Below, piece by piece: positions 15,590 to 64,000 of a DNA stretch of 64,000 nt; position 1 is the first letter of the stretch, and each line of letters begins with the position of its first letter. The notes under the pieces were generated by a model. The model saw only the letters and a list, made by a program, of their open reading frames with translations. It searched no databases and was not told the DNA's origin. The stretch comes from Hymenolepis diminuta (Eukaryota; Platyhelminthes; Cestoda; Cyclophyllidea; Hymenolepididae). Where the stretch lies: contig CAADRB010000019.1 of the NCBI GenBank assembly GCA_900708905.1, positions 499,514 to 563,513 of the forward strand. The letters run 5' to 3'. The position numbers and the translations under genes were made by a program.

Positions 15590-15715
15590 TTGCGGTTTTA
15601 CAGTTAAAACGTCCAATAATGGGATTGGGCTGCGTGCTAACGGAAGAGAAGTAATTGACAGAATTGGAAAAGTTGAGTAGCACTCACCAAATGGAAGAGA
15701 GCTTGAAAAGAAATG
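15590..15715 (+). repeat. conserved island P, copy 2
   Basis: First clear anchor of the left copy of the 28-kb duplication. TTAAAACGTCCAATAATGGG, then TTGGGCTGCGTGCTAAC, AAAAGTTGAGTAGCACTC and CAAATGGAAGAGAGCTTG, parallels 43505-43615 (TTAAAACGCTAAATAGTGGT, TTGGACCTGTACTAACTG, AAAAGTTAAGTGAACCTC, CAGATGGAAGTCGGAAAG). The offset is about 27.9 kb. Substitutions do not favour any codon position. Confidence 0.75.
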
Positions 15716-16489
15716 TTAAACAAGTGACTTACTAAGAAAAACAAAAGACAAAATTATTTAAAAAAACTAATGTATTGACTATAGAGAGTGAAAAATTGCT
15801 CTCCTTTACTATGATTACAGATCAGAACAGGATAGGTAGGTTTTTAGCTAAATATCAAAGTATTTATATAATTTAGTATTCAAATAGGATTAAAATTCAT
15901 TATGTTAATCAATTTTAAAATGAACAAACGTCTATTATTATTGATACACATTAGAGTAGGATCATATAATTAATTGATTAAAGCATAGCTTACTAAATGC
16001 CTCAAGGTAAAGCTATGGATCTTTGAGTATCCATGAGTAATTGCACAAACATATTAAAACAACTTGGTAAATATTGCAACTAATGTATAAGTAGCTATTC
16101 CCCGAACTTTATCCAGTAATCAAAATATTAACTAAATGTTAAATGAGGTGAAATTTCTTTCCTGAGGCTAAATATCCACCTATTACGCACTCATTAAAAA
16201 AGGAAGTAGCTATCTGTCATTTTTATTAGATGATCAGACAAAATGAATTGTGTCTAATTCCCAGTTTTAAATTACAATGTGATCAGATTTTGAGATACAA
16301 AAATTTCGGAGTGTTCAATCCAGTTAGGTATTTTATATATATTTATATGAAAGGCATATTTTTGAATAGAATCGATTAAATGATAAGCATTTTAAGCAGT
16401 GGTAGATTTATATTTCGCTTCTATTTGAGGAATACTTTTAAATTAAATCTTGAAGTAAAATTTAGACGTAGAACAGAAGAATGCTAAAA

Positions 16490-16605
16490 TGATGAAAGGA
16501 CCATCCTTTGAGTAGGAAATGAAGAGGAATACGCTTACTTTTTACCGCTGAATAAGACTGGACCTCACACTAAGATACCCGTCTTAAGGAATATTGTTTC
16601 TGTTT
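16490..16605 (+). repeat. conserved island A, copy 2
   Basis: AGACTGGACCTCACACTAAG followed by ATACCCGTCTTAAGG matches AGACTGGACCTCGCGCGAAG and ATTACTGTCTTGCAG at 44446-44480, at an offset of 27.9 kb. The upstream half (GAAGAGGAATACGC, CTTACTTTTTACCGCTG) resembles A1. Confidence 0.72.
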
Positions 16606-17410
16606 ATTTTGGACAATCACTTTCTGTAAATCTTAAACCAGAAAAAATTATGAAGTACATTAAATTTCCCCATGCCCTCTTACTAAATTGGAGCTATTTC
16701 TGTTTGAATAAAAGCTATAGAAGCCGGAAAATTATTATAGGATGATTAAACAATTTCTAAATGTCAGTACTGGAGGAAAAGATGAGAAAAGGAGATAACG
16801 CATAGGGAATGTTAATGTCCCTTCCGTTGATAATGTTCTCTCATCGAAGGACAAAGAACGACAGTAGCCGAAAACAGAGCAAACTAATACCGTTTGGGCG
16901 TTCGGAGTTTCTTTTTTCAAGTCTTACGGTCATGGTGATGGTGCTCGCCATATTTTAATTGAAGCACCTATCTGATTTTGACACATTTGGCTGCGTGAAT
17001 GGGTCAAGGAAATGGATTTTATTTTTGATACATGTCGATTTATATTTAAAAGCAATATTAGGCACTACGATTTCACCTTTAAGCATCTTTATTAAGGAAT
17101 AAATTAAATTTGTGAAAACTACAAAATGTATTACAATGATGCTGTAAGAAAACATTCATGACGAGAGATAACCAGATATCAAGAAACCTATCTCAATCTC
17201 GTTGAATGTTGAAAAATGCATAGAGTTGGACAAACATTTTACGATAGTCCTCATAAAAAATGAATATGATGAAGCAGTTGAACAAAGAATGAGAAAACAA
17301 ATTCTTTTATCCCTCTTGTAACCAAAGAATAGCAGAGGGATTGATTAATACATGAGCATGGAGGTAAGGCGAATGTTGGTTTTAAATAAGGTAATAATAG
17401 GTGGATAAAA
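16606..17410. other. intergenic part of the left duplication copy
   Basis: Lies between island A2 and the near-identical tract. A block TCTCATCGAAGGACAAAG at 16840 resembles TCTCATCGAAGGAAAAAG near 37490, possibly another scattered island copy. No coding feature recognised. Confidence 0.4.
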
Positions 17411-18130
17411 AAATAATAAGCACCCATTAAAATCAGGAGAAATAATATTTTCAGGTCATGATTGTTACTTTAGGTTTTCCTTCAAATTTTAATTAAATCA
17501 TCAAAATTTTACTGTGAGATTTAAATGTGTTAGCTTGACTCACATTAAAGCCATATTTTACATATCAAAATTTGCAGTTACTGCCGCTGGAAACGACGAT
17601 GACAAATGGGAGGATAAGGAAACGATGATTTGAATGATGATGGGAAGAAATTTTCCCTGAGTGAAAAGAGAAGAAAGCCTCCTGAATACAAAGACTCGTG
17701 CATTCATCAACAGGACATGGGCAGTCACGCATAGGCCTATTTTCTCAAGCTAACAATTCCGATGATTACATATGTTCGAAGAAACTAAAGACTGATTGAG
17801 TGATGTTAAAACTTCCTGCATTGAAGTGCGAAATTCAGAACAAAATTCTAAATTTAAATGTATGTCGATAAGAATCAAACCGTAGTTTTTTAATATCAAT
17901 TTAGTTGAGATGGATTGAATTTTCCTGATGGTCTTCAGTTATGGTATTAATAAATAAGCAAAGCAACAGAAAAACATATTTATGATGTATGTAGCACCGA
18001 ATTTAAATGTTCGAATTTTTTCCCACTTAATACCGTTAAGAATATTTCTTCATAACCTACCCTTCCGAGTAATAAGATAAGGTGCTAAATTCGCCTGACC
18101 ACGAAAAAATGTTTTAGTCGAGTAAGGCTT
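17411..18130 (+). repeat. near-identical 720-bp tract, left copy
   Basis: Compared line by line with 45961-46680: no indels and a single substitution (G at 18111, A at 46661). Both copies then diverge within ten bases. On the left, the partner starts at the first base after the assembly gap, so the true left limit is unknown. Surrounding paralogous sequence is far more diverged, so this tract is much younger than the duplication it sits in, or it is an assembly artefact. It has no long open frame and no terminal repeats. Confidence 0.97.
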
Positions 18131-19539
18131 GAATGATTCAGCATTTTTATTTCATTTTAATTATTGAATTCGACATTGGTGATGTCTGTCCATCTAAGTT
18201 ATATTAAATCAATATCAGAATGTAAGTAACTTAGTTGCAAGAAGGAAAAAAAGATTAAATCATAACATTAAACAACGCCATGGCTAACGGCATCATGTAG
18301 AAGACTTTCTTATAAAGTGAAACAGTCTATAATCGCATTACAAATATGAATCACGCAAGCGTCTTAGGTATCATGTTTTTTTCCGATGTCTATTTATTCT
18401 CCCACTTTGCTTCTTGATTCCACTATTTTCCGGTGCTTCCTGAAATTTTAAAAATGTTTCTCTTTTTCTCCCAAGCAACGATAATAATCTACTCATCTAC
18501 CAGCCGATATCCTTTAAATTATGTAAACTTTAGTATATTTGTAATTGCTTGTTAAAGATGAGTTGAAAAATAATGAATACAGTGGTTTATATGGACCTCG
18601 TAACAGGCCAGGTACATAATTTGACCAAAATTGTGCTTGAGGAAAAAGCAATGATCGCAAAAAGAGCATGGTATTCACCTGCGGTAAACGGCTACAATTC
18701 AGCTGAAAAGTGGGGGAAAAGATTTAATCAAGTGTAACGTACATTATATATTTTTCATGACACTTAAAGAGGGTGTGATTCACAATGTCTATTTTGGGAT
18801 TACTATAAAATATTGCATTAAATTAGACCATCTTTCCGGGGATTAAAAATGGAAAATGCTAATTAACTCAGTAACTAATTTTTAAAACATTTGCTGAAGA
18901 ATGAGTTATTTATTCCACATTTGTACATAGTTTTCAAAGTCAGTGATTAGTGGAATATCTAATAAAATGATATTTCGTTTAAAATGCCCATAAAAATGAT
19001 TGAGTAACTATTCATTTTTGAATACTATATCGAGATTGTTCACCATTTTGCTTCTTCAACTGGTTATCTTTTTTCAAGTTGTTCTAAATTGATGTGAAAA
19101 TTTTATCTTTAAAATACTTCACTGACATTAGAGTAGTTACAATAAATAACAACCAACAATTTAATATTTAGTGGTCACAATTTACACAAGAAATCTCACG
19201 CCATTATCGTTCGATGAACTCTATGCTTATAATGCTGAATATTTGGTAATATAAAGATAAATTGAAATTCATTCCTAAATGTTAGTGAGTAGCGAGCAAA
19301 GAGGTTGTTAACCAAAATCGACAAGGATAAAACGCTAAAGACAAGAATTTATGAAGAAACGAAGTAAAGCATCTTTTCTGTTGTTTTCTCCCGTACTCTG
19401 AGTTAGTTAGCATATCAAAAAAAGAGAATGAGATTTATCTTAGAAAAAGTGCTAAGCTAATGAGCTTAAATGGTGTATGACATCAAACCTAACTGTAAGC
19501 AAATTCACAAATTGTCAATAATTTTTATCTATTCATTCA
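18131..19539. other. AT-rich intergenic sequence, no gene recognised
   Basis: Past the near-identical tract, similarity with the right copy falls to a level I cannot align by eye. No gene, tRNA or clear repeat seen. Confidence 0.45.
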
Positions 19540-19990
19540 TTCAGAAAAGGAAAAAAGATAAGAGAGAATGAAGATAGCAAAATGGGAGAAGAGGAGATTA
19601 ATAGACAAACTATTAATCAGTTGTTCACTTCTACCGCCAATTTGGCAAAGGGTGAAGGAAACGAAGAAAAGGCTAAGGCCGAATTATCTTTTCTCTTGCA
19701 CGTATGTGTGGTCGCATTTGAGTAGATAAAATCTTCTCTTTTTTCCTAATCGTGTCTCATTGTGACTCCAGCAAACATTTGCTTAATTTTGACCACCTCC
19801 CCCTATTCCGAAGCTAACTACCCTACCCGTCTACCACTCAAGGAGGAGCGAAACAAATTAGTCTTATAGGGTTGAGGTGTTTGAATAAGCAATGTTCTGG
19901 CAATTTCCCCTTTCTCGCTAAAGTGTTTTCTTTTCTTCTAAAGTCAAACCCATCCGCCAAAGATTCACGGATCAATAATTTGGAGCAAAA
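19540..19990 (+). repeat. conserved island K, copy 2
   Basis: Longest clear match with K4 (47990-48375), offset 28.4 kb. In order: a purine-rich GAGAAGAGGAGATTAATAG, ATTAATCAGTTGTTCACTTC, CTCTTGCACGTATGTGTGGT, a pyrimidine-rich ACCTCCCCCTATTCC block, GGAGGAGCGAAACAAATTAG, TAGGGTTGAGG, and CCATCCGCCAAAGATTCACG. Partners in K4 include ACCATTGATCATTTGTTTAT, CTCCTGCACGTGTGGTATC, GGAGGAGCAAAACAAATTAG and CTCATCCGCTAAGGATTTAG. Substitutions around the AAACAAATTA core fall at all three codon positions and there are indels, so this looks noncoding. Confidence 0.78.
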
Positions 19991-22179
19991 TTTTATTTCG
20001 GGGCACTTTATGCATCTTATAATGTTGAGCATGCGGGAAAATTTGAGTAGACTTTTTTCAACGCATTATTCATAAGATTTATTGGTCATAATCTGGTAAA
20101 TCGAATAGCATTGAGAAAAAAATATACTCGTATATTAATTTTGTTTATTTGTATCAATATTTTTTATTTTATATTAATGCAGCAAGTTGAATGAAAAATG
20201 CAATTAATAAAAGTTTGTAATTATTATCTAGATCTACTGCTGTTTCACATTCATTTGTTGAAAAATTTAAATGTATTTAAAATATTTTTGCTGTTCAAAT
20301 TTCATGATCAAAAAGCCTTAACAGAGATGGCCGAATATTTTCCGGATTTTACGACTACTTTAGAGTTTCAGCAATGCCGTTCAAATACTCACGGACAAAT
20401 GGCGAGTTTGTTATAATGAAATTACCCGTTCTTGAGAAAATTTGTGATTTCCTATGGAAAAATAATGTTGGAAGTGATATTTTAACCATTTTCTGAAAGA
20501 TCATAAATAATGTTATTTTATTTATTTTTGTATAGTCTTGCTCAAAAATAACCAACAAAAAAAGCGCAATATTTAAACGAGTAAGGTATCGCCCTCAGAT
20601 TTTCAACTTTGTTTTCCAGGTATTTATATATTATACTAAAAAAATTAAAAAAACGCACGTAGTACATTTTTTCAGGAAAGATTACGTTTGTTTTTGACTT
20701 TCTTTGAAAAATGAATCAAGCACTTACTTTTCTGTTTTTCTGAGCGACAAACAATCCAGCTAGTGCTTTTGCCCATTATTTTCTGAGAGTTCAAAAATTA
20801 CCAAAACCATTAAAATGTACCTGGAAAAACAAATTGACAAGTTTCTTTAGCAGAGCATATTTAATTAATTTTTAAATACATAATTTAACATTATTTGAGG
20901 ACATATAAATAAAAGAAGCATTTTATTGAAAGTAAAAGTTTTAAAAAATTTCTCCTGATTCAATTTTGGCTCTTTTAACCACCTGTGATTTTTAAAGAAG
21001 GAATTGAAGAGGAAAGATAAAAATATGATTAAAATTCGCATTTGGTGATGGTGACGGTGCCCATGTGACCTAGATAATATTGCGCAGCTGGTCATCTGGT
21101 TACGCTTCAGCACTTAAGAACATCAAAAGACAACGAGGATGCGGATTATGTGGGTTCATTTTTTTCCATTTATCGCTTTACCATTCAAAAGAAAGCCACC
21201 ATAATTTCAGAAAAGTTATAAATGAAAATGTATACGATTTTAAGATGAATATATATAGTCATTAATACCTGCGATTTTTCTTACTGTCAAAGTAGACAAA
21301 GGGGCTAATTGATTGCGAAATTCGTATTTATTTTGCCAAGATATATAACTTTGTTAACTGCTAATCGGCGCAGAGGTTATAACTGTTTATATGTAGCATT
21401 TTATTTTTGCAGATTGATAAAGTAAAACAGTTTTGTAATTAAAAACATTAAATGAATATCTTTTGAAGACAATAATGAGTTCTGGATGTCATTTTGGAAA
21501 ATATTTAGAATCATGTGCCAAATGGAAAATTACTTAGAAGTAACGGATCACCAGTCATCAATTAAATAAAATCTTACCAATATGTAACAATATTGGGTTT
21601 TAAATTGATTTTTAAATTCATTTAATCTTATCTATAATTCGAAAATCATTTTTTAAATATATCGAAGCTGCATTTAAGTGCATGATTTAAATTTTGTTAT
21701 TTTGAGTGAACTTCATTAACCTTATAGGAAGCCGCACTTACTGAAACTAAAATGTATGGCAAAGATATTCCCCTAAAAATAAAAGATAATTGCATTTTCT
21801 GAATTATTAAATTGAAATGCAATTTTATTTTAATAATAGAATTAAATAGGTTAAGACCATCCTATTGCATAGTAGATGAAAATGTGCGTGGCGCCTTGAA
21901 TAATGGCGGTCATTAAATTGAATTTGATCGGTTTCTATCTAACCTGTTCCCCGGTGAATTTAGCGCATAATGTTATATAGATTAAAACGTATTCCGACTC
22001 GACTGAAAATAACTGATCAATTCAGGAACATGTATCTATCACAAATAGAACTATCGGCTTATACGCACGAATGAATGCAGATAGCGAAGAAAATCGAGTT
22101 TACGAATGAGATATCGACAGTGTCTTACAAATGGTAAATCCGCAGATTTCTACAACTCACACGTACAGCTGGTTCCTCC
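19991..22179. other. AT-rich intergenic sequence, no gene recognised
   Basis: About 1.2 kb longer than the corresponding interval in the right copy (48376-49399), so something was inserted here or lost there. The short frames at 20198-20416, 20865-21113 and 21080-21265 show no domain. Confidence 0.45.
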
Positions 22180-22430
22180 GATGGCACAAACGCCCACTAG
22201 TTTATCGCTTTATAAAGGAGGCCTGAGATGGCGAGATTAGTGGCGGGGATATACGGACGCACGTGCCACCTACCTTGATATGCCCACTGGCCTGTCCCTA
22301 ATCAAACCCTTCTCATTCACGGTATCCTATTCAAATTCCATACCACCACGAAACGTTTTTGAGAGCGTTTTATTTAGTACTTTTCTTGATTTTGCTCTTT
22401 ATTGATACGTCGGAAATAGTGTATCTGTTA
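22180..22430 (+). repeat. conserved island B, copy 2, with TATA-like box
   Basis: CCCACTAGTTTATCGCTTTA, TAAAGGAGGCCTGAGATGG, CGAGATTAGTGGC and GCACGTGCCACCTACC parallel CCCACTTGTTTATCACACTA, TATAGCAGGCCATGAGATAT, CGAGACTAGTGGC and ACATGCCCCACCCACG at 49402-49480. A second block, CTTGATTTTGCTCTTTATTG, matches CTTCGATTTCGCGCTTTATT. The aligned CTTTATAAAGG and ACTATATAGCAGG could be TATA boxes of paralogous promoters, but no initiator or transcript evidence is available. Confidence 0.72.
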
Positions 22431-24599
22431 TGACATTCGGAAAGAGAGAAGCATAATAACATCTTTATTCTTAAGCCATTGGCATTACACTTACACATAT
22501 ACAATGTTAGTTTAATTTACTTGATGTAAGCATCTGGGAATGATATTCCGATTAGATGCATTGCAGTAGCCAAGCTATTCAACTCCTAAAATGCACCTGT
22601 TTGAATAATTACGAATCTGGCAATGCTCACGTATTGAGAAGGATTGTTTAGAGGCTGTCAGATATCGCCACTCCGATATTTGCTTTAGTAGGTATTTTTC
22701 TTTATATATATGTGAATGAGGCCAGAATCTTAATGAACCAAAGACTAAATGAATTTTTAACAGTTTCCAACCACCGGGTAAAGTTGTATAATGGAAAAGG
22801 ATCTATTAATTACTACACTTTTTAAACTCAGCATTAAACTACAATTTCTGTAATCTTGTTTTTGAATAGGCACATTTATATCGAATTTTTTTACCTATAG
22901 GTTATAAAACCATTCGGCTTTAATTTATTAAAAATTAGAGTTTATGGTTGATTAGCTGCCGCGCAAAGAAAAAATTATTGATTTTACCAAAATAGTTTAA
23001 TAAGAGTTTAGTTTAGTATTATTGAGAGAATTGCATTATTGAAAATGAAAATGTGAAATATGGAAGCAGTCTTTGTTATTTTTTGCTGAATTTATTTGAA
23101 AAGCAAAAGAGTAAGGTAAACCTCTCGGTCATTTAAAAAGATATATTTAATTAGTTTTACATTTAATTGAAAAATCTATTCCTTTGATTTAAATATAATG
23201 CCTTGCACGCTATTCTATTGTTTCAGGTAATATGAATAAAGTGCGGACTATTGTATTATGGTTAACTACACTGTTTCTTTCGCAAGTTTGCGTCATTTCA
23301 CTTTCAAAAACAACTTTATTCAGATCTTTTAATACATATCTCAGAGCCGTCAACTTCAGTTGGAACATTTTACATGTTGACTGAAGAGCGCAAACAACTT
23401 CTTTAAAAATACATACAGTGCAATTTATGACCCCTGAAAGTTAGATATTTTTTTCATTCCTGTACATTATGATTTCATCGTACACCTAGTACTTATTTTT
23501 TGCAAAATTTCCTGTTCAAATCTTGGTAATTTCTTCAACCCTCTTTGAGTATTCCTTTCCTAAAAAACAGAAGGACCTGGGATCGAAGCGTAGGAAGGAA
23601 ATGTGAGCAGAACTTGGTCGGGAGCTACAGATCCCCTAACACGCAATCGCACCTCATGATTTGAGCCTTTTAAATTTATTTACTGTCATGATTTTATGAT
23701 GTAATACTATAATATAAGTTGCAATGCTTTAAATAAATAGGATATTTAAAAATTGCCTTTTGAATAAAAAACTACGAGAATTTACAACTCAATTTGGTTT
23801 TTAGATTATCTAAATAATTTGAGAAATGATTGAAAATAAGGTTGTGCATATATAATTTTATGCGTGAAATTTAAATATTTGAATGCCTATAAAATTTTAA
23901 AAAAATTCTTTTATTTTTTACATGGTGGTGAAATTGAAAAGAAAGCAAAACCCTTTTTACTGGCTAAATTGTTAAATATACAAATGAAGCTATAGTAAAT
24001 CAGTTTGCAATCGAAGCGAACGATGTCTAGTTATATAAATTCATTGATTAAGACTATAATTAATCAAAGAATTATTGGTTATCTCAAATAAACCTTAGAA
24101 ATATCTAGCCATTTTTATCTGCTATCCCTTTTGAAGAAATGGCACGATAAGAAAATTCAATCACTATTTCTGAATGAGATTTAAGTAGAATCTAAAATTT
24201 AAAACGAAAAGTTTTGACAAATTTTCTATTTTAAATGCCATAATTTGAATATTACCAATATTTCAACTATTGTATTTTATTACATATTTTAATGTTTAAT
24301 TTAAAATACTGGTCAAATAAACGGAAGGTTTGACCTATCAGAAATTCAAAGAGATGGATAAAATATTAATGCTTGCGGTTAACGTATATTGAAACAACAT
24401 GTATTTTGTCAACTTTCCATGCAAAAAACTAAAATTTTCTAACTTCAAGACACATGAAGCACCAACTTAAATTTAAAAATATAAATAAAAAATATATATA
24501 CTAGGATAGGCATAGTAAACTGGTAAACTCTGAAAGTATGGAAACCCTACCAAAGGAAGTATTCCTTAATTGGGGTGTTAATTCACGCCTAGCATTTTC
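22431..24599. other. AT-rich intergenic sequence, no gene recognised
   Basis: Nothing coding is visible. The interval has the expected spacing to its partner, 49626-52440, but I could not align it by eye. Confidence 0.45.
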
Positions 24600-24850
24600 G
24601 TTATGCTCGATGGAAAAGATTTTTATAATACGTTTAGGCAATCCTGGAATAATTAAAGGCACCCTTTTCGCATTTTCACAACATGTGTTGTTGGGCATTG
24701 ATAACAGTTGATTTTTACAAAAAAATCAGAGTGCTTTCCTCTTTTCATTTTATAATTTTTTGTGTTGGTATTAAATGATTAGATCAGCCTAGTCTAATTC
24801 CTTTCCGAGTGGCATAATAATCACCTGTGAATAAAAGAGAAAGCGACCAA
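24600..24850 (+). repeat. conserved island E, copy 2
   Basis: ACAACATGTGTTGTTGGGCA, TTGATAACAGTTGATTTTTA and GTGCTTTCCTCTTTTC match ACAACATGTGTTAATAGGTA, TTGATAACAGCTGATTCCAG and GTGCCTTCCTCTTCAAG at 52467-52560, with similar spacing between the parts. The shared ATGTGTT..GATAACAG..TGAT pattern over about 40 bp is the strongest part. Confidence 0.68.
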
Positions 24851-24939
24851 TGATCAATAAGTGTATATAAGAAATAATTACAAACAATTTTGAGATTTTA
24901 AGCTTGATTGCACAGTTGCTACGTATTTGAGACAAGTTT

Positions 24940-25115
24940 TAGGGATAAAAGTAGGAAGAGGGAATGCAAAAACTTGGATTTTTAAGGGTTGTGTCGCGCG
25001 GGAATGTACACTAATTCCTTCACTCCCTACTCACTTTCCGTCTAACTTCCCCACTCAAAATGACCCAGGAACGTTCATGAAGGGTGGTCTAGATGAAGGC
25101 TAAAAATATTTCTGC
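24940..25115 (+). repeat. possible island shared with 34960-35150 (weak)
   Basis: GTAGGAAGAGGGAATGC, a pyrimidine-rich TTCACTCCCTACTCACTTTC, and CATGAAGGGTGGTCTAGATG with AAGGCTAAAA resemble GGAGGTGGAGGAAAAGC, CTTCGTCTCCTTACCCTCC and CATGGGGTGGTCTAAACG with AAGAGCGGCTTAA. The order and spacing agree, but low complexity makes chance possible. Confidence 0.35.
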
Positions 25116-25829
25116 TAGTGAGAAGGATAAAAACTTACCGGAATTCCTTGCTGGTCTATAGCAGCATTTAAAAATTTACTTCAAAGTTCCTATAGAAGCA
25201 AACTTAAAGGCATCCTCTTACAGAGTTAACGGAAAGCAAAGTCTTTCCTAAATCAGACAACAAAAATTTGGGTTAAATCACAGGCAGATAGCAAATAGGA
25301 CAAGCAGACGTAGGAGTCAGTTCATGTATACAAGATGTCGTCATACCTGAGTGAAGTGTTACATAAGTTTGAGGTCTGTCGTCAGCTTACTGAAGTTCCT
25401 TTGAGATAGGTGAAACTGAGCAAGAGCAAGAATCTAGTGTAAGTTCACAAAGTTGAAACGTAGCCCTCCCATAGTAAGATGTATGTCACCAAAGACGGAG
25501 ACCTTTTTATTATTTATTGATTGATTTTTTCATCTTCGCTGAAAGAATTTCAAACTGGATTTGGCAATTTTTTTGCATTAACGATGAATGAAGTAAGTGA
25601 TATCAATCTGCAGGGCTTATTAGCAGGGCCTGAAAAACATACTACTTTTAAACATACTTTAATTAGCCTGAATCCATAAGATTAATTACATGTTTCTCGA
25701 CTTTGGGCTATAGCTTTAGACTTAAAATCCATAAATAACAAATGGAAATACTCAACGAATGTGAAATCGAATTTCATAAGGTTAGTGCGTAAAATGGTGA
25801 GATCTACTAAACATCTTTATAATAAAATG

Positions 25830-26440
25830 CTGCCGTCTATTAAATGTATTCACCAGCTGCCTTTTCGGCAATTTTCATAAATCACTTTATTAAAGGCTCC
25901 TGATATGCACTATTTTCAGTACTTATTCGACGGACCAGAGATGAAAGAGAATTGGACACCCGTGGCAGCAGAAACTATAATATGAAGCTGACAGCTTTAG
26001 ATTTACGGAATGTCAAAATATTTTTACTTTGATAACTCCTTTTTATTATATCATAAAGTCCTCAAAATTTCAGACACTTGCCCTCCGTAAGCAGTAGATG
26101 TGTAATAGCATTGGCCTACTCAATAAAGAAATCGGCCATTTTATTTACTGATAATTGATAATTGGACATGTTCAGTTCTCGCAATGGAAGACCGTGTGCT
26201 TAGCTATTCTTTTTGTCTCCATACTTTCTTAGTTAATTTTCTTTCCATTTGATTTTGCTCCATCATTATTCTTTTTGTTAAGCAATAGAGAAACCTTGTG
26301 AAAACATATCCACTGGGAGTAAATCTGCTTATTTTTGGGAGTGGTCAGAGTCGTGAGTTAAGCTTACAATACAGGGGCTACCCTTACTTGAGACAATTAG
26401 TTCTCATCGTGAATTGGTAAAAATTGTTCCATTTTATGTT
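25830..26440 (+). repeat. conserved island I, copy 2
   Basis: CTGCCGTCTATTAAATGTAT, TCACCAGCTGCCTTTTCGGC and later GTGGTCAGAGTCGTGAG, TTACAATACAGGGGC and GTGAATTGGTAAAAATTGTT match CTGCCATCCATATAATGCAT, TCATCGGCTGCTTTTCGAC, GCGGTCGAAGTCGTGTA, GTACAATGCAAGTACAGGCC and GTAAATTGGTAAAATTGTC at 53695-54320. The offset is 27.8-27.9 kb at both ends, so the colinear match extends over about 600 bp. Confidence 0.72.
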
Positions 26441-26539
26441 TTAAAATATCTCTCATTTTAATATTGCTCATGCAGACAATTTAATACAATTTCTCCTTCT
26501 CTCCCAGCCACTCCTAACACTTCCACCGAAATAAATCTC

Positions 26540-26950
26540 TGATTTGAGTAGACCTCACATGTCGTGTGGACGTCCTCAAATCCCCACACGAGTTTTGGGT
26601 TAGAGGGAAGCGCTGGTGAGTCCCAAGATAGTGTCCTTTATTTCCAATCTCCCTAAGCTGGCAGAGTAAGATACTTCAAAATTAACATACCCAGAAGGAG
26701 CGCAACGCTAGTGCCGGCAGTGTCCAAGGCAAGAAGACCCGCTTTAAAGGGGCGGGATATGGCGTGCCTGAAATGGAATGGGGAGGGCAGAGTTTTGTGC
26801 AGACTTCTTGTAAATACTGGGGCGAGGCAGAGAGGGAGGGGGACTGAAAACACTTTGACCACCCTGAATTTGCCGCCACGACTGTTTAAGCAAATCTTTG
26901 AAGGTAGTTTGCTTAGACGTCATGAATTGACTACTAGGTGGATTTAAAAA
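26540..26950 (+). repeat. conserved island C, copy 2
   Basis: GC-rich for this window and the best preserved member of its family. A 24-base block containing ACACTTTGACCACCCTGAAT is identical at 26848-26871 and 54684-54707. Other parts match C1 and C5: AGTAGACCTCAC, TTTTGGGTTAGAGGGAAGCG, GCCGGCAGTGTCCAAGGC, GGCGTGCCTGA and GGGAGGGGGACTGAAAA. Plus-strand frame 26711-26947 reads through the block, and C4's frame 54658-54894 shares NTLTTLN with it, but the frames part at once on both sides and C1 and C5 do not keep them. I regard the island as noncoding. Confidence 0.78.
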
Positions 26951-28938: not shown

Positions 28939-29178
28939 GTATTGCTACCAGAGCATTGCTGCCCATCACTGATGTGAAGTGATTCCCTTGGGACTAGATA
29001 GGAAGGGAAAAATAAAAGTGGGTAGAGATATAAGAAGAAATATAAATTGTTATGTCTGGTGGAACTGGCTGGATCTCTTATTACGGCTCTGTGGGAACCC
29101 ATTTCACATTGACTTGATTGTTATTTTTCAGTAATGCTTAAATGGTGTTTTATTTAACTTTAAAATTTGCCAATTTCT
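28939..29178 (+). repeat. near-identical 240-bp tract, left copy
   Basis: Matches 63761-64000 over 240 bases without indels and with three substitutions, at the left end and near 28994. The match runs off the window end, so its full length is unknown. A minus-strand frame (28914-29102, 62 codons) has a near-identical twin at 63721-63924, but that follows from the DNA identity and is not evidence for a protein. Confidence 0.96.
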
Positions 29179-34959: not shown

Positions 34960-35170
34960 CAATGCACACCGAGAGATTTGGGAGTCTAAGGAGGTGGAGG
35001 AAAAGCTCTGATCCTTAAGAAATCAAGAGAGGCACGAGAACCCACCTCTTCGTCTCCTTACCCTCCTCTCTCTGGTAAACCCACATTCAAACAAACGTAG
35101 GGCAAAACTCATGGGGTGGTCTAAACGAAGAGCGGCTTAACAAAATACCAGTCAGTCGGTGGTGGATAGG
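34960..35170 (+). repeat. possible island shared with 24940-25115 (weak)
   Basis: GC-richer block with a purine-rich left half, a pyrimidine-rich centre (CACCTCTTCGTCTCCTTACC) and GGGGTGGTCTAAACGAAG. Its partner is described at 24940-25115. No coding frame. Confidence 0.35.
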
Positions 35171-53689: not shown

Positions 53690-54330
53690 GAGTATGCTGC
53701 CATCCATATAATGCATTCATCGGCTGCTTTTCGACTATTTCCATGCCTCTTTTCATTAAACTATTCTAATACATATAATACGCCGTAATAGTCTAACTTA
53801 TCAATGGTGATTGGGAATTGAATAGATGCGAGTATCAGACCTTATTATATGAAATTGGCATATTTACACTTGTGAACAGAGTTATATGTAGGGTTAACGA
53901 ATTAAAAAAATGTTTTGACTCCAATAATACATTTCCATATGTCAAAAGGTTTCTGAAATCCCGCATATAATTTGCAATCATCAAGCTGGTAATAACATTG
54001 GCAGCCCAACTGAGGATATCAGCCATGTTGTTTACCGATCATTTCTTAATGATCTGCTTATTTCTCTCTAAGAGAGAATAACTATTTATCTATTATTTCT
54101 TTTCCTCCATAGTTAATAACTCTCATTTTCTCCTTTTTATCATCTTCTCGCCCCGTCATTATTCTGGCTGGAAAGAAATAGAGAAGTCAGTGCATTTAAT
54201 TTTACCTTCTTCGGGGAGCGGTCGAAGTCGTGTATTTAGTGTACAATGCAAGTACAGGCCTCACTTGTAAGAGGATTACCAAGTCAGTTAATTCTTATAG
54301 TAAATTGGTAAAATTGTCGTACTTCGCATT
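53690..54330 (+). repeat. conserved island I, copy 4
   Basis: Partner of 25830-26440; the matching phrases are given there. CTCTCTAAGAGAGAATAAC near 54063 forms a small hairpin (TCTCT..AGAGA) not seen in the left copy. Confidence 0.72.
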
Positions 54331-54599: not shown

Positions 54600-54900
54600 G
54601 ACGTCTTATATTGGAGTTAAAGAGTTCGCCCAGATTGTTTGTGACTGCTAGGCTGTTATGAGGAGGTGGAGTGTAAAAGTCAGAAACACTTTGACCACCC
54701 TGAATTTTCTGTCATGGCTGATTCAAGCAATTTTCCAACTTTGTGCAAGTTCTTTACTCTTGAGTAGACTGTCAAACTATCTATCAATTATAATACAAGT
54801 ATTTTACTCATCTATTTGGACACCCTTCTTTGGAAAGTGGTTTTTCATGAGTATTCACTTTCCCATGCGTTGCTTCTACAAAGAGAGGAAGTAGTTAGCA
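54600..54900 (+). repeat. conserved island C, copy 4 (right half)
   Basis: Shares 24 identical bases with C2 (54684-54707) and continues with GGCTGATTCAAGCAATTTTC against CGACTGTTTAAGCAAATC of C2. The left half of the island (AGTAGACCTCAC head, GGCAGTGTCC block) is not recognisable here, so this copy is truncated or its left half has decayed. C5, a fuller copy, starts about 0.7 kb further right. Confidence 0.7.
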
Positions 54901-55559
54901 AACTTCATGAATTTACCTTTTTTCAAAGCAATCATATGTAGTTGCGGGCCATCATCTCTTGAATCTAATTTTATTGCTGCCTTTTCATATTAAATCATTT
55001 TAGTCGAGTTGATCAAGGGACGCGCTAACAAAGAACTCCAAATTCCAATTAGGTTATGATACAAATGGTTATTAATGTTTAGATCAGACATAAATTTGCC
55101 ATAAATTATAATGGAAAGATTTGTATAAGGTAAGAACTTTATGTCACATGTGTTCATGTACCTAAATTAACCTCAAAAAACTATTAGCTTGAGGTTGCTA
55201 TTATTTTGTTAATTACAAAACTCCTAGGATATTAAGAGCTCACGAAATGAATAGAAATGTCGCAGAGATCTAAAGAGGATATGAGAAAGAGTAAAATGAA
55301 TACACACTAGCTTTTCATTTTCATAGCACGCGCAAATAGAACAAATGTGATGTTAAAATGGTGTTTGTGGAATAAAGAGTGAGGTTTTAAAATTAAATCT
55401 GATTCTTTGTTTCAAAATATAGCGAACTTCAAGGCCAAAAACCACATTCAAAAAATTCACATTGTCCATTTGTTCAAAATACCGCATTTATTAAAAGTTT
55501 GCAAAAGATTCAAATAACATTAACCATACGATTTAAAGAATTTTCAAATTATGGATGTT
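54901..55559. other. AT-rich spacer between two C islands
   Basis: No feature recognised. Confidence 0.5.
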
Positions 55560-55965
55560 CATTCCGATTAGATGTCACAAGTTATGGGGACATACTCACT
55601 TTGGGTTACGGAGGAGCATTGGTGGCTATAACGTCACTGCTTCCAATCTTCTCCACTCTTCCAGTGCCAACAGAAGGAGATTAATTAATTAATTAATCTA
55701 TCTCAAAGGTTTACAGTATCAGTGTCAGCAGTGTCTCCAAAGCAAGTACAGATGACGAAAAGAAACCATTTTACAAGTTTTGCGGTGTGCCTGAGCTAGA
55801 TTAGAAAGCAAAATTTGTACGTTAGGCTGCTAAGCGGGAGCAAAAAAGGGAGGAGGGAGATATAAATTCACCTACTTGAATTTGCATCCATTTCTGTTTT
55901 GATCAAATTTTTGACGGTAGGCTTTCTAAGTGTCACGTGTTGATTTCTGTGTCGATTGATAAACA
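55560..55965 (+). repeat. conserved island C, copy 5
   Basis: Follows C2 along most of its length: TCACTTTGGGTTACGGAGG with CGAGTTTTGGGTTAGAGG; AGCATTGGTGGC with AGCGCTGGTGAG; GTCAGCAGTGTCTCCAAAGC with GCCGGCAGTGTCCAAGGC; GCGGTGTGCCTGAGC with TGGCGTGCCTGAAATG; and GGGAGGAGGGAGATATAAAT with GGGAGGGGGACTGAAA. A (TTAA)n run at 55681-55697 interrupts it. C4 and C5 lie within 1 kb on the right, while the left copy has only C2, so a local duplication or mobility of the island is implied. Confidence 0.68.
55681..55697. repeat. (TTAA)n microsatellite
   Basis: Four tandem TTAA units within island C5, absent from C1 and C2. Confidence 0.9.
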
Positions 55966-57649
55966 ACTGGGTGAAAAATGAATTAATATTTTTATCTGTC
56001 AATTCAGAGAACTTTTGCTGATAGATATCCTTCATGATCGTTCACATTCCTATGCACTATGCTACTAATAGAGGGAGAAATTCATGCACATCCTGGCATA
56101 ATTTTTGCAAAGCAATAAAATATGATGAAAATTATACTTGACTTAAGTACGAGAACGTTTATTCTGTATTTAAATCCGTTATGAAATTTTTCAAGACTTA
56201 AGCAAACGAAGACATAAATTTCTGTCTCTAATATCGCAAATTTTCATCTTAAGGGAATTCGAGCAACGACGATGTAATACATGTTTAAAGACAATAATGC
56301 ATTGCTCTGACGATACGGTCGAAATCGCTATTCTCTGGGAGCAAAAATCAACGAGGACTTCCACTTCCGGCTGTGTTAAGTCTTGGCTGATTTAACATCT
56401 CTCAGAATGTCAACTTTAGTATTGATATTCATTCAGTGCGAACATCTCAAAAGATCGCTTGAAATGCAGCAAAATATGTTCTTTGGTTGAAAAAAATAAA
56501 CAATCTACCTCACCTCCCATGAACTAAATGTACTTTTGATTCCCAAAACTGGTAAACTCTGCATTAGCTATTCATACGCTTGTGCGATCTGCATCTTGCA
56601 TATTATCCTTATTAATAAGCGGACATGTATGCATATACATTTATAAAGTTAGGTTTTGTTGACTGGACTAGAATACATAGATCTTAATTTCCACAGCGAC
56701 TTCAATAAATATATAATTTGTTCGCTTATTTTATAATTTTGCACCTAAGTTTTTGTTACATTTTTGGCTCAAAATCATCATATTGAGAAAATTTGTGTTT
56801 GGGTACTTAACCGGACTTAAGTAATTAAAACATATGAAAAAGAGAATATATTTTTGGTGCCGTTAGAAATCTAAACATACTTTCAAGTACTGAAACTTGT
56901 CATTTTCTAAATAATAATAAATTCTGCTCGGAACCACAGTTGAATACTTAGTATGATTATTTGATTACAAATGGTAACTACTGGTAGTGCATCACTACAA
57001 AATTTTTATTACCAATGTAATTCTAATCAAAACTCCCAAAACATTCTCAAGAAAGCAGTATGGAGAAATAAGATAACAAATTCAAAGAGGTCCGAACTAT
57101 ATATAACGATATCCAGTTACCCCGGTAAAATTGGGTATTGTACAAGATTATCCATTATTTCTGATGAACAATTTATTCACCAAACGTTATTTTGCTTGAT
57201 AAATGGAAGAAAACAAATTAATAATTAATAACGCCGAGGAAAAAAATTTATGGATGCTTTCATTTCCGTCTTGAAACCACCCTTTTTAAGTTTTTCCTTC
57301 CTCGTATCACTTCAACTTCGAATTCATCAGAGGTTTCTGGGCTTTCAACGAGATCTTAAGCAGCAATTCTGTAGTCCTGGATTGCTTTCACAAGTCTTAT
57401 CTTTTGAAAGGATCCAAGGGAGAGTAAAGCGGGGTTGATGTAGGCGTTGATTTAGCTCTCGTAAAGCATGGCCTAAAATGGTTTCTATACATGATGTAAA
57501 TAAAATCATTTACCTACATTTAAAAATAACTTTTATCCGTCGTTTGACCACAGTTTCGACCATCCAGAAGTAACCACTACGTAAATTATAATTTACCGCA
57601 CAACATTTGATGAGGTGTCATCTTGTAAGGTAATAGGAAATTTAGAATA
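55966..57649. other. no gene recognised; expected place of the retrotransposon 3' LTR
   Basis: By the shift in duplication offset, about 7 kb was inserted between 54.9 and 62.6 kb, more than the recognisable Ty3/gypsy coding remnant. The downstream end of that element should lie here. I could not identify an LTR by eye. Confidence 0.35.
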
Positions 57650-57659
57650 AATTCCTCCG

Positions 57660-58350
57660 TTTCTCTCTCCTATTTTGCTTTCTGCGGGGCCCTTTTGAAC
57701 GTGTCAACAAATCGCCATGCTCGGCAATTTGATTGAGTGTGATGTTAGGTGCGTGCAGTATTTTTTTAACTGCGGCATACAAAACAGTGTTCCATGGCTT
57801 GATACCGGAGTTTCTGGGAAACCATGCGTTGTGAAGATGCCCTCAAGGACACTGATAATTGCTCCTGCGTTTGGGGTCGGGACTGATAATGCTCCCTGTC
57901 ATTTGGAGCTTGAGTCCATCAATGCAACACTCGATAACACCAGCAAAATCAACAAGCACTCTACTCCATGGTGTCTTTGTTAGGAACTATGGCATTTAAT
58001 TTTCACATGGAGGGCTTCTAACAGCAATTTGAAATTTAAGAAAGCCTTTGTTTAAATGCAAAGAGTATGACAACTCTCTTATTAAATATCAAAGGGAAGT
58101 CGAAAATAGATTATGTCTTACGACGGTAGAATAGATTCAACAAATCTTCTTTTAAGAATGAACCTGACCATTTCGTTTTCACACATTTTGTGGCTTTTCC
58201 GATGACTGAATCTTTCGCCAAAGTGCGTTTTAATAGTTCCACCGTTGCAGGAATATTCTGGATAGGGTTGTTCAAACTACGGTATTCATCATTTACGAGG
58301 TATCCTGGCGATGACGGTTTCTTTCCTGTTTGTTGATTCGAAATTAACAA
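57660..58350 (-). pseudogene. Ty3/gypsy integrase remnant
   Basis: The open frame 58350-58111 has IPATVELLKRTLAKDSVIGK followed by a K-W and an LFYRRK ending, the stretch that precedes the zinc-binding domain in gypsy integrases. The zinc-binding HHCC itself is not recognisable. The core appears at 57930-57760: MDSSSKW (first catalytic Asp kept), then THGFPETPVSSHGTLF, where the family's S-D-N-G is S-S-H-G, so the second catalytic Asp is gone. The Glu-bearing part near 57690 is frameshifted. Confidence 0.88.
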
Positions 58351-58549
58351 TAATTATCTATCCGCTTGTGAAAACACTGGAGTTCTCTGATATTTGATTT
58401 CGAAATCATATGCTGCCAAAATTATTGCCTATCACTGAAGACGATTCACCGAATATGTTGAAATTTCTTTCCTGGATCCAAAAATTGATGACAAATGTTT
58501 GTGACTCACCGGAAGATTAAGGTGACGACCAAGACAAATTTATGGAACT

Positions 58550-58929
58550 TCTTCGCGGCATGGACTATAGTAAATACTTCTTTTTAGTTTGTCCCTTGTT
58601 CTGTCCCTTTCTGATGGTATCGACGAAAGGGATGCGTGAGCCACGGTTTTCTATGAGCCATCTGGGGAAGCATGTGACGTCACTGTTCTACATCGTAATT
58701 TGTAATGTCTGCTGTGATCAATAGTGGCAATTCTAGATTGCAGTGAGTCAGAAGCATATCTTATTGCAGCATGAATTTCAGCTCCTCAAACAATCTTTGG
58801 CAGTTATCAGACCAGTGCCAGGCAGTGCCTTTATAGAGGAGGCAATTAAGGGTTTCACGAACTTCATACAGGTAAGGTAGAAAACAGTTCCATTAGCTCA
58901 TTAATCCCGGCACTGAACGAAGATTTTAG
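58550..58929 (-). pseudogene. Ty3/gypsy RNase H remnant
   Basis: Between RT and RNase H, LRSVPGLMS (about 58920-58890) matches the LRSFLGL connection motif. NLELPLLITADITNYDV (about 58738-58690) matches the pattern in which the first RNase H Asp lies in D-A-S/D-I-T. Stops and frameshifts follow. Confidence 0.75.
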
Positions 58930-59790
58930 ATATTGGTTGGAGATGGCACGTTTACAATAGCTCGAATTCGCTTAGGATCAGGTTGGCACCCCTCCGAATA
59001 AATAAATCAAGATATTTTATGAATTTCAAGAAGAACTCACACTTCTCCGGCTTCAAATGAAAACCATAATTGGCAATGTGTTCAGGCAGACATTCAGTTC
59101 GTTACCTGAATTCATTCTTGGTGCCCTCATGTGCTATAATACCGTGCAGTTACTCAGGTGGGCCTTTTAGATCACCAATCATATTGCCCATCGTATGTTG
59201 GAAAATACCTGGGACTGTTTTCACACTAGACGGGGGTCTAGTAAACTGATATATAACTCGGTCCATGCTGGTAGTTGGTACTTGCAAATAAGCGTCTAAT
59301 AAATCCAACTTCGCAAATCGTGTGCCAATATTGAGAGTTGCTAATATATCTTTAGCAACAGGAAGAGGATGGTGGGTATCTTCAGTAGCTACATTGCACT
59401 AATGAAAACGTTAGCAGATAAATGAACACTACCATTCTGTTTTCATACAACCACAATTTGCACTGCCAATTTAAAGTAGGATACAAATTGTAAAACATCG
59501 ATTTTTTTCAGATCATAAAATCTTTTAATGCACACTTTGTATATCGGTGTAGGTAACTAGACTCTTCGGACGGAAAGTTAGTTTCATATTTCCTTTCAGA
59601 TACGGGTTAACTTTCGTTTTTATAAGCTGACCTAGGCTGTCTCTGAAAACTGAAGAAAATCGTTTGATTATGCCCCTTTTATCTTCAGTCTTTCTAATAT
59701 CAGATTCGCTTGTCATATCAGTTTTATGAATAGGTTCAGCCGATTTCTTTTTGTGAATTAAATTCCGCTTTCTGACCATCTGAGCAAATT
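58930..59790 (-). pseudogene. Ty3/gypsy reverse transcriptase remnant
   Basis: In order on the minus strand: FSSVFRDSLGQLIKTKV (59685-59630, the linker before RT, in open frame 59779-59525), then KLDLLDAYLQV (about 59312-59280, the LDLxxAY motif carrying the first catalytic Asp), PGIFQHTMGNMIGDLKG (about 59212-59160, the FQ..M motif), then the active-site box, which reads stop-LHG-II instead of Y-x-D-D-I, and NYGFHLKPEKCEFF (about 59080-59035, the G..L.P.KC.F motif). Assignment is certain; the enzyme is dead. Confidence 0.92.
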
Positions 59791-59849
59791 TTTTTATTCT
59801 GTCACTTGAGTGACAGATGATTTTTCAGCAAGGAAGTGGATGGTCTACT

Positions 59850-60060
59850 TCAGCGACTTTAATTTGTCAAACCAATAGAGATCCAGAATATCCAAATCAG
59901 GCTGATTTGTTGTGAGGCACTTTGCAGTTATTTGCTGATATCCGTAACCAACTTAGCAGTCAATTTCGCCCTAAAATTTCAGAGCGCCCTCAGAAGTGTT
60001 TTTGGCTATATTATTTGTCAGTTTCAGCAATTAACAGCATAAAAGTTTCGATTTCTTTCC
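59850..60060 (-). pseudogene. Ty3/gypsy protease remnant
   Basis: Only the C-terminal part is recognisable: DLDILDLYWFDKL at about 59905-59865 resembles the D-x-x-L-G-x-D-W-L motif that follows the aspartic protease core in gypsy elements. The active-site D-T/S-G was not seen. Flanking stops confirm decay. Confidence 0.5.
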
Positions 60061-60266
60061 TGAAATCAAAGTATCCGATTGGGACCTGACTTTGTCATTA
60101 TTAATCATCATGGTTACATACTGTCGTCTAATAGAACCTTTGTGTTCATAGTTTGGACTGAGAACAATGAGAGAATTGAAAGATCCAGTAAGCCTACCAA
60201 TAATTTTCTATTTCTCTAAATAACCCATCGTATTGCCCAGGCATTTTGCTTCTTCATGTCCTTTTT

Positions 60267-60900
60267 TCAAATGTGATTTCTGTTAGGAGAGTCTCTGCAA
60301 TTGTGCATTACTAAACATAACCAGTACGGTGATGGGATTTCTTGTTTGGAATATTTTCCTACCTGTTTCTCTTCTCGGACGGTTGTGGAATTCCTTTGAC
60401 ATGACATCATTGGCATTTTACTAGATTGTGGCGTGTCACCCAAGATGGAGCACATTCTTCGACATACCTCTCATGAATCCAGTAGAGTGGTATCATGATT
60501 TTGTTTAATCTTGCTAAAATTCTTACATGAGAATCCATACCGCAGAAATCTTCAAGACCAAAAAGGAAAAAGGCACTTAGAGTGCTCGTGTGAAATAGAT
60601 ATGTAGTCCAGTTGTTCAACAATTTTATTTATCTCTGTAATATGATCAATTTAATCCTTATCAAGTCTCTTAATCTGCATTAGGCACGTTAGGCACTTTT
60701 GAAATTTCGATTATTTCCGCCAAACATTTTGCGAAGAATGGACAGTGCTTCCTCGAATTTGATCATCCAATTCCTTTGGGCGCATTAACATTTTAACTTT
60801 TAGTTTTTGCGGTCCATACTCGAGGAATAAGGAGTCTGACTCTTTTCCCCTCAGGGATGTAAGTAAGATCTTTTCTGAACACATCCTTGCATTTATCAAA
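60267..60900 (-). pseudogene. Ty3/gypsy gag remnant
   Basis: The frame at 60622-60407 contains FLFGLEDFCGMDSHVRILAR, matching the conserved gag stretch of arthropod Ty3/gypsy elements of the type FxxGLxxPxDxxIRTRxL. Downstream (60350-60267), YWLCLVMHNCRDSPN resembles a zinc-knuckle with the usual Cys/His spacing damaged. Upstream frame 60899-60711 (62 codons) is probably also gag. Stops separate the pieces. Gag would form the particle and bind RNA; this copy cannot. Confidence 0.7.
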
Positions 60901-62519
60901 TCTTTTCATATCGATCCGATCGAATTAACTTTACATTCCTCATAAGTATCCTTGAGTAAAAATGCAGTGCAATATGACACATTCAAATCAAACTGATCTT
61001 AACCACGCATTTTCAGTAACATCCTACCCAAGGGATAAATGAATGCTATTAAATTTTATCGTAAGAAATTCCACTTTGGCGGTGCTGTCAATAGTTGCAT
61101 CATCTAAATCCGAGATTCTGTGTTATCCCCTAGTTACCACGATCAAGTAGCAACTAATTTTACTTAATAATGGACACAGAGTGCATAATCCAGTCTTCTT
61201 CTACCAATAGAAGTAAAATGTGTTAGTTCACATTTTCTAATCATCTCACCTGAATGACTTCCACCTTAAATTCATCTTCAAATAGTATGCGGATCACGTC
61301 TCTTTATGATGAGCTAGTAAGTAAGCTCTAAAATTTTGATCTTTCAGAGTTTTAATTAAATACGATCGTGAGGGGCTATAAGACTACTATTAAAATATCC
61401 ATGCTGATTAATTCGTTTTGCCAAAGAAACTTAGCATGATTATCCCAGCACGTTTAAAAAAGCGTTAATGCATTTCTAAGTGATTAAAATAGTTCTTTTA
61501 TTCACGTTTTACACGTTTTTATCTAATTATTGTAGTTAATCACTACCTCTTCTAATTCTCCATTATTTTCATCCGCTATCCAAAGGAAAATCATACTTGT
61601 CATGCTTGTGGCATATTGGCTAGAGGGTTAATTTGGACGATTATTCATCAAATTTTGAGGGGATGTCTCGTCTTTTTTATAGTCAAATTAATGGATGTGT
61701 CAATTTGATTTTAACAAATTGGTAATAATGTCAACTTTATTAAGTTTCACTATGAACAAATTTAACAGTAAGTATGAGAAAATAATTCTGCCCAACATTG
61801 CTGAAACTTTCTCTTTCGCTAAAAATCGCCGGCTTGATATGTAATTAAAAGGAGCTTAAAAATATAAGAACCGATTAAACGAAAAGGAAATGGTTTTCCC
61901 TGATGACTACAAAACTTGCATGTTTCTAGCTTTTTGGAAAACTCTCATCTGAAAATACATATGTATATATATATTTTTTTCATTCCGATTCTTATACAAG
62001 AGTGACAATTCAGGTTGTCATAGAAAGATAGTTTAGTTTTATATCTGAAAGTTAATCCGAGTCTAAATAGCCGAATAATTTTAAATACATTTGTTGCGCA
62101 AAATAGTAGGCTATTAAATATCATGCTAGATCATTTTGCCTTCTCAACAATTGGGAGAAAGAGTATAAATGATGTGACTAGACCGACTCTTCTTGTTAAA
62201 CCGGTCAATAAGCACTGAAAATCATGAACAAATATTTACTGCAATCCAGAGGATGAACCGTAAATATTTAATTTTGAAATATGAACAGTGGTTTCTATGC
62301 AACCCGATTCCAAATCGAGTGAAGACTCTCCGATATTTTGACTTCTTCTCTATCGCTTTTTTGACCTTTTAACCGATTTCAGTCGCTCCTCATAGTTAAA
62401 AATGACAATTTTTTATTACTGTGGGTAATAATAATAAGTGATATGAATATAAAATATTTTGAATAGCCAATGACAGCGTGAATCATCCTTTCAACGAGGC
62501 ATCCTGAATCAGTGTGATA
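60901..62519. other. no gene recognised; expected place of the retrotransposon 5' LTR
   Basis: The upstream end of the minus-strand Ty3/gypsy element should lie here, because homology to the left copy resumes near 62.5 kb. I could not identify an LTR pair or primer-binding site by eye. A short (TA)n run occurs near 61965. Confidence 0.35.
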
Positions 62520-63760
62520 ATCATTAATTTTATAATTTGCTTATGATGACCAGTCACCGAATGAAACTAGGCATTTTGTCAATAAAGGACAACCTAAAGC
62601 GCAACGGATAATGGCTACAATATGCCAAGTCCAGGCACCAATGAACTATAAGGTGCAAATCCGGTTCTGTTTAAGACAAATATGAATTGCAAATGAAAAT
62701 GGTTGACGATGGAGCAATTGAAGGTAGATATGGCCCATTGCAATTTTTTGAGGGGAGTTGCTAACTAGTATATACGAATAATCAATAAAATTGACTAATA
62801 GAAGAAGTGAAAAGATTTAAAAAGAATCTAATGGTATTATGTACTCAAGTGATTGTGTTCATATTATTGAAGTTAAGTAAGATTTATTTTATGAGTGAGT
62901 GAATCTTGAGACATTTATTGTTGTAGGAATATCTCTCATGAAAGTGGAAAAGAGGAAGTGGTACTGGAGTAGATCGATACCATCAGAAGTAAGAAACTGC
63001 ATCTTACTGTTGTTGAAGCGAATGAAATGAGACCACAAGGCAAGGGCTAGAAAGACATCGGATGGAAGTTAGGATTAAGAACCAAATTAAATTGATGGCA
63101 TCCTGAAAAGCCCATGCTAATCCAAAAATTGACAACGAAAGGTCGCATTTATCAGAATTAAGTGATTTTGTATATCACGATCATAAAAAATAAGACTGTT
63201 TAAAAATGAAAATAATGAAATTATGATGGTTAAGTCGTTTTAAAGGATTTAAATAGACATTCATCTTGCTAGCTATTTAAATATTTGACATAATCAAGCC
63301 TGTTAAATATTGATTCATTTAATAATACTGATCACAACATTAACAATTCCACTAGTTATTTAAACAAATTAGAGCGCCAATTTCCAATTAGAACCACCGC
63401 ATACTGGATGGATCGTATATAGGTGTATTTAAAGTTTACACAAATCAATAAATATGATTTTTACTACGTGCAGTTCTATCTTCATGTTCTAGTAAATCGG
63501 CTTTAACAAAATTAAACGAAACACCTATGCATTAATTTCTTTCCAGTGTTAAACTCTATTTTTTAACATCGCTCTGCTAGTTCAGCAAAGGTTCACCTTG
63601 GTAGGCTAAAAAATACTCAACAGCTAACTTGATGAGGATTGGTAAAAAGGTTTCTTTGCACATCACGGCTCACAAAAATTGAAATGCACAGAATGAGGAA
63701 GAAATTCGGGAAAATTTGGGTCACTTTTCATTTGTTTCTTGAGTTATAATACTAGGAGAA
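62520..63760 (+). repeat. conserved island J, copy 4 (diverged part)
   Basis: Partner of 27700-28938 at an offset of 34.80-34.82 kb; the matching phrases are given there. The 7-kb jump in offset from islands A-I is explained by the retrotransposon insertion and the extra C island. Confidence 0.62.
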
Positions 63761-64000
63761 GTATTGCTACCATAGTATTGCTGCCCATCACTGATGTGAA
63801 GTGATTCCCTTGGGAATAGATAGGAAGGGAAAAATAAAAGTGGGTAGAGATATAAGAAGAAATATAAATTGTTATGTCTGGTGGAACTGGCTGGATCTCT
63901 TATTACGGCTCTGTGGGAACCCATTTCACATTGACTTGATTGTTATTTTTCAGTAATGCTTAAATGGTGTTTTATTTAACTTTAAAATTTGCCAATTTCT
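63761..64000 (+). repeat. near-identical 240-bp tract, right copy (cut by window end)
   Basis: Matches 28939-29178 with three substitutions and no indels, and continues to the last base of the window. The sequence just left of it is diverged, so the boundary of near-identity is sharp, as at 18130/46680. Confidence 0.96.

Follow-up and report, generated by a model that had tools for sequence, protein, structure and literature searches.

Near-identical noncoding patches in an old triplicated flank of NOL4-like genes, with gene conversion as their probable cause

Genes at the locus

The 64,000-bp window considered here (bases 499,514-563,513 of a 2.6-Mb contig; the whole assembly comprises 170.6 Mb in 203 contigs) contains two long, diverged copies of one noncoding segment, in which three patches, designated E1, E2 and E3, are nearly identical between the copies. 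Self-comparison was extended by 100 kb upstream and 140 kb downstream of the window, and coordinates beyond 1-64000 are window coordinates carried outward. Two NOL4-like genes lie downstream in opposite orientation, with exon-bearing open reading frames (ORFs) at 78.2-80.4 kb (minus strand) and 131.0-133.1 kb (plus strand), which places the window 3′ of the first gene: it is the gene-poor 3′ flank of that gene in a NOL4-like cluster. The locus, left without a name in the sequence-only reading, can thus be named by its PF23079 genes.

The NOL4 domain exons, at 79.4 kb (minus) and 131.7 kb (plus), match PF23079 with 51.1 and 53.4 bits (curated cut-off 26), and are 94.4% identical over 107 amino acids. 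Synonymous divergence (dS) between the two genes is 0.65-1.0 depending on the exon, and the distance at fourfold-degenerate sites is 0.77 (F84) or 0.69 (K80) over 142 sites; the third positions of all identical residues, constrained sites included, give 0.44. Together with neighbouring sequence, the genes form an inverted duplication (76.7-96.8 kb versus 134.8-111.8 kb). NOL4-like exon remnants are also present outside the window at 103382-104689 and 177036-177482, the latter containing stops. A genome search with PF23079 gave four hits over the cut-off, three on this contig and one on another (C81), two of the four having internal stops; 30 kb at the C81 locus yielded scattered weak matches that formed no chain by eye, and E1-E3 were all absent from it. 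Two NOL4-like proteins found in a protein database may belong to related species.

Within the window, no Rfam family reached its gathering threshold, a tRNA search found none, and Pfam searches of 10 of the 39 listed ORFs yielded none over cut-off and one sub-threshold match. Guanine-plus-cytosine (GC) content is about 33%, with mild CpG depletion, which makes an invertebrate host likely. A literature search brought up no paper that we recognised as dealing with this locus.

An old duplication of the 3′ flank

Noncoding islands had been described from the sequence alone as recurring in the same order and orientation across the window. Local comparison of 11-37 kb with 37-74 kb (E ≤ 1e-3) gave 20 matches, 17 of them on the same strand with offsets of 26,966-36,860; 16 of the 20 lie on a strict colinear chain, the number being 16 rather than 17 since the matches 26594/55600 and 26848/54684 overlap in copy-1 sequence. 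The other three (12004/63628, 16436/67322 and the inverted 30482/66346) are off the chain. The duplication starts at 11124/38090 (offset 26,966) and ends outside the window at 36450/73296 (start offset 36,860), so that it is longer than had been noted: by the outermost fitting matches, copy 1 occupies 11124-36450 (plus), and copy 2, by its matches to copy 1, occupies 38090-64000 (plus) and runs on to about 73296. The 17 fitting matches span 10,076 of 26,000 bases of copy 1. As a control, reversed copy 2 produced no matches, and neither did flanking regions at -42 to -6 kb and -95 to -58 kb; a third control region, at 155-192 kb, gave eight unchained matches (the same eight at 160-197 kb), one of which is part of the third copy described below.

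All nine islands were recovered at the expected offsets, namely 15583/43493 (27,910), 16273/44149 (27,876), 17411/45961 (28,550), 18979/47398 (28,419), 22193/49402 (27,209), 24468/52251 (27,783), 25827/53694 (27,867), 26848/54684 (27,836) and 28631/63441 (34,810), which we take to be those earlier labelled P, A, the 720-bp tract, K, B, E, I, C and J, in that order. The jump in offset from 27.8 to 34.8 kb before J, previously attributed to a retrotransposon insertion, fits a dispersed repeat inserted at about 57.0-60.9 kb in copy 2 (57000-60900, minus strand), with at least 78 matches in the genome among the best 40 of 857 first-look candidates that were scored. Its nature as a decayed retroelement was judged by eye only, as was the reverse-transcriptase look of the ORF at 59150-59398 (minus), for which a Pfam search returned no family.

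Islands belonging to old dispersed repeat families might have fallen into a similar order by chance; one island family does occur at eight places within the cluster, and the unchained matches at 155-192 kb and the scattered weak ones on C81 are what such repeats could leave behind. Random repeats would not, however, line up 16 of 20 matches in a strict chain, and the two flanking regions were empty. E1, E2 and E3 are found at two genome places each, as opposed to at least 60 and at least 78 matches for the true repeats at this locus, and a genome search with 18180-26430 matched only itself, which is weak evidence since genome-wide DNA searches miss matches at 60% identity and this one failed to recover copy 2. 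We regard a chance assembly of repeats as very improbable.

Outside the patches, ordinary islands are about 58-70% identical between copies. Island K (18979-19877, plus) is 60% identical to its partner at 47398-48301, and the island at 25827-26427 (plus) is 59% identical to that at 53694-54317; a long island at 32772-34458 (plus) is paired with 69068-70798, and its part at 33335-34448 is also found in copy 3, inverted, at 140197-139069. These milder islands may be candidate regulatory modules that have been kept, and some of them may be old divergent repeats. The island at 26467-26992 (plus) is common to all three copies and is a member of a family of elements of about 250-560 bp, with short motifs in common, which occurs at eight places within the NOL4-like cluster: at 26467-26992, 54679-54935 and 55599-56114 in the window and at 76.7, 92.5, 116.4, 134.3 and 150.2 kb outside it. 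A genome search with one member matched, besides itself, only the copy at 150.2 kb. The family may represent a boundary element, a promoter-like element or an old repeat.

A third, inverted copy

Colinear matches show that the flank is threefold: a third copy lies inverted at about 137-161 kb and adjoins the second NOL4-like gene. Between copies 1 and 3, nine of 13 matches fall on one inverted chain leading from 16.4-36.3 kb to 160.7-136.8 kb, with four off it; the copy-1 positions are 16.4, 26.5, 28.9, 30.6, 31.5, 32.1, 33.3, 35.1 and 36.0 kb, and their partners, in the same order, are at 160.7, 150.7, 146.9, 144.4, 144.0, 143.5, 140.2, 138.1 and 137.0 kb. Between copies 2 and 3, there are 16 matches: in nine the two coordinates add up to 209.5-211.8 kb, two are located beyond the repeat insertion, and five are off. 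Four islands aligned three ways are split, copies 1 and 2 being closest in two (0.644 and 0.637) and copies 1 and 3 in the other two (0.631 and 0.698), and because of this split the three copies are judged to be an old set. The duplication is real, old, longer than first noted and threefold. The proposal of an old segmental duplication with selectively kept noncoding islands thus stands as far as the duplication is concerned, while selection seems a poor explanation for the most striking islands, to which we now turn.

Near-identical patches

E1 is located at 17411-18138 (plus) in copy 1 and 45961-46688 (plus) in copy 2, with two mismatches in 728 bp (99.7% identity) and an exact run of 700 bp. 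E2, the core of island J, is at 28942-29250 (plus) in copy 1 and, by alignment with it, at 63764-64000 (plus) in copy 2, ending at 64072 beyond the window; it has four mismatches in 309 bp (98.7%) and a 255-bp exact run. E3, at 29880-30170 (plus) in copy 1, has its partner outside the window at 65210-65500, with seven mismatches in 291 bp (97.6%), and is exact over no more than 108 bp at a stretch. If one dispersed element is set aside, E1-E3 are the only places in the 304-kb region where direct repeats are exact for 100 bp or more. The identity of the patches is far above that of their flanks, with fairly sharp edges, although the edges of E3 are graded and E1 tapers off over about 40 bp on the right, its left edge in copy 2 being masked by an assembly gap.

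Spacers had been reported as no longer alignable by eye, and the measurements agree: the flanks of E1 are 0.66 and 0.61 identical and the right flank of E3 0.64, within the range of 40 unrelated pairs, which average 0.61 and reach 0.66 at most. The left flank of E2 (0.70) and the spacer between E2 and E3 (0.73, unequal lengths) exceed all 40 controls.

Protein-coding patches were rejected, as matches occur in several frames and on both strands without long ORFs, which bears out the earlier impression that no coding signal is present; a protein database probed with chance ORFs of E1 and E2 returned no relatives. Nine patch pieces folded as RNA, on the plus strand only, gave z-scores of -1.84 to 1.74, none strongly better than shuffles, and even the best-folding piece (28942-29090) was equalled by nine of 200 shuffles. 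A transposon as the cause was rejected in view of the two genome places per patch. The other long exact repeats of the region, at 107.8, 140.9 and 167.3 kb, are a dispersed 1.3-kb element.

The near-identity, in part or in full, might be absent from the animal itself if a single repeat contig or consensus had been placed in both copies during assembly. E1 in copy 2 starts exactly at the edge of a run of 771 N (45190-45960) that lies directly to its left, and is exact for 700 bp; by the offsets, copy 2 is also about 540-670 bp longer near E1. On the other hand, E2 and E3 are far from N runs and differ by four and seven bases, the right edge of E1 fades gradually, and short-read assembly would be expected to leave a gap beside a genuine long exact repeat, all of which makes an artefact improbable.

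Gene conversion or constraint

The third copy allows the two remaining explanations to be weighed against each other. E1-E3 might be ultraconserved paralogous regulatory elements that copy 3 has lost and that purifying selection preserves base for base in the other two copies. Their identity of 97.6-99.7% over 291-728 bp, next to sequence at or near chance similarity, is suggestive of such elements, and the locus resembles a gene desert by NOL4-like genes with milder conserved islands. Were copies 1 and 2 frozen by selection, about one branch would separate them from copy 3, or about 0.4 substitutions per site. The counterpart of E2 in copy 3 is end-to-end colinear at 146867-146566 (score 29 versus a control maximum of 25, n=64), and that of E1 is partial, at 159468-159198 (score 35 versus 32, n=62), while E3 was sought in copy 3 and not found, 48 of 62 controls scoring as well. 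Per base, E1 and E2 score about 0.05 and 0.09 against copy 3, in contrast to 0.22-0.28 for five ordinary islands, which are thus closer to copy 3 than the patches are. With E1 and E2 barely traceable in copy 3 and no E3 found there, the patches do not behave as elements kept in other paralogous copies.

We simulated divergence at three insertion-deletion (indel) rates, with 40 runs per setting, and counted the runs in which the score to copy 3 was as observed or lower. At 0.4 substitutions per site this happened in 0-3% of runs for E1 and 0-7% for E2; at 0.65 the values were 0-78% and 28-85%, and at 0.8 they were 42-100% and 72-100%. The observed scores are therefore ordinary at 0.65-0.8 for most settings, which is near the full NOL4 distance, and they fit this range better than the 0.4 expected under selection. 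E1 and E2 seem to have drifted from copy 3 at about the neutral rate and yet to have stayed identical to each other, a combination that would result from gene conversion between the two tandem copies.

We therefore favour, with a probability of roughly 0.6, the view that copies 1 and 2 of the old triplicated flank have undergone gene conversion over a long time and that this is the source of the near-identity of E1-E3; it would explain the most striking islands better than ultraconservation, which we hold to be doubtful. Two paralogues kept to the same 700 letters by selection would also be more extreme than the paralogous elements known from vertebrates. Rather unlikely, too, is a combined origin, in which E1-E3 serve a NOL4-like gene of a probably invertebrate genome as ultraconserved regulatory elements in pairs, kept identical in the two tandem copies by selection and conversion together, with conversion shielding regulatory DNA from drift.

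In the proposed scenario, the flank, with copies 1 and 2 as a tandem pair and copy 3 inverted by the second NOL4-like gene, was duplicated long enough ago for much spacer sequence to have reached or approached chance similarity. In the milder islands, weak constraint would have slowed divergence, a cis-regulatory function being the probable reason. Three patches of about 290-730 bp would have gone on being exchanged between copies 1 and 2 by interlocus gene conversion ever since the duplication, remaining near-identical to each other and drifting jointly away from copy 3. Conversion presumably ceases where the remaining identity is too short, so that the patches may be the last stretches long enough to recombine, and E3, with its 108-bp exact run, would be near escape.

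Several observations weigh against this scenario. Surroundings as diverged as the present ones would hinder conversion, so that copies 1 and 2 would need to have exchanged sequence almost without interruption. In copy 3, E1 and E2 have weak counterparts, and with stiffer gap costs the E2 slot is not among the best background windows; E3, without a trace in copy 3, is silent on constraint versus conversion. At 0.5 substitutions per site, simulated scores were as observed or lower in 0-12% (E1) and 0-40% (E2) of runs, the values of 12% and 40% being obtained at the highest indel rate. The comparison assumes equal branch rates, its yardstick islands were chosen because they could be aligned, and the neutral yardstick is small, the fourfold distance coming from those 142 sites. 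Copy 3 may have lost constraint and decayed fast, or may be partly deleted. Over the four three-way islands, pooled identity is 0.63 for copies 1-2, 0.60 for copies 1-3 and 0.57 for copies 2-3, suggesting that copies 1 and 2 are somewhat closer to each other than to copy 3, yet no recent pair. Patch GC (0.33, 0.35 and 0.31, versus 0.29-0.34 in flanks) carries no signature of biased conversion. Finally, since E1 in copy 2 touches the assembly gap, its identity could partly be assembly consensus.

Comparison with known systems is instructive for both explanations. Ultraconserved elements consist of hundreds of identical noncoding bases, a trait shared by E1-E3; in our case, however, the identity is between paralogues within one genome, and copy 3 speaks against this kinship. 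Duplicated conserved noncoding elements (dCNEs) by developmental paralogues, as described in PMC1896008, share with the present islands their noncoding nature and their persistence beside paralogous genes, but the present host is probably not a vertebrate, its ordinary islands are weakly kept, and the extreme patches have not persisted in copy 3. For interlocus gene conversion, the review PMC3924818 gives tracts of 50 to several hundred bp and, for yeast, a minimal efficient segment of around 200 bp. The sizes of E1-E3 are near such tract lengths, E1 and E2 are above the yeast minimum with their longest exact runs (700 and 255 bp), and two paralogues are identical against a third; by contrast with the systems covered there, our patches are noncoding with surroundings at or near chance similarity, the exact run of E3 is below 200 bp, and exchange would be read from paralogous copies in one genome.

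Comparison of only two copies confounds constraint with gene conversion; a noncoding segment present in three copies, as here, helps to tell these two causes of near-perfect identity apart. If conversion is indeed responsible, identity between paralogues must not by itself count as ultraconservation; if constraint is, the locus holds an unusually extreme regulatory element, probably outside vertebrates.

Other features of the region

In the window, ORFs at 1159-1765 (plus) resemble a decayed transposase by eye, with no family in Pfam. Outside it, a 370-amino-acid ORF at 153672-154781 (minus) has no Pfam family, and two ORFs at 189338-190394 (minus) jointly carry a homeodomain (PF00046) that is apparently split by an intron, its second piece being below the cut-off. 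The 1.3-kb dispersed element, which we take to be mariner-like, occurs outside the window at 107755-109113, 140802-141862, 167193-168486 and -94105 to -92804; it has inverted ends of about 35 bp and at least 60 matches in the genome among the best 40 of 715 first-look candidates that were scored.

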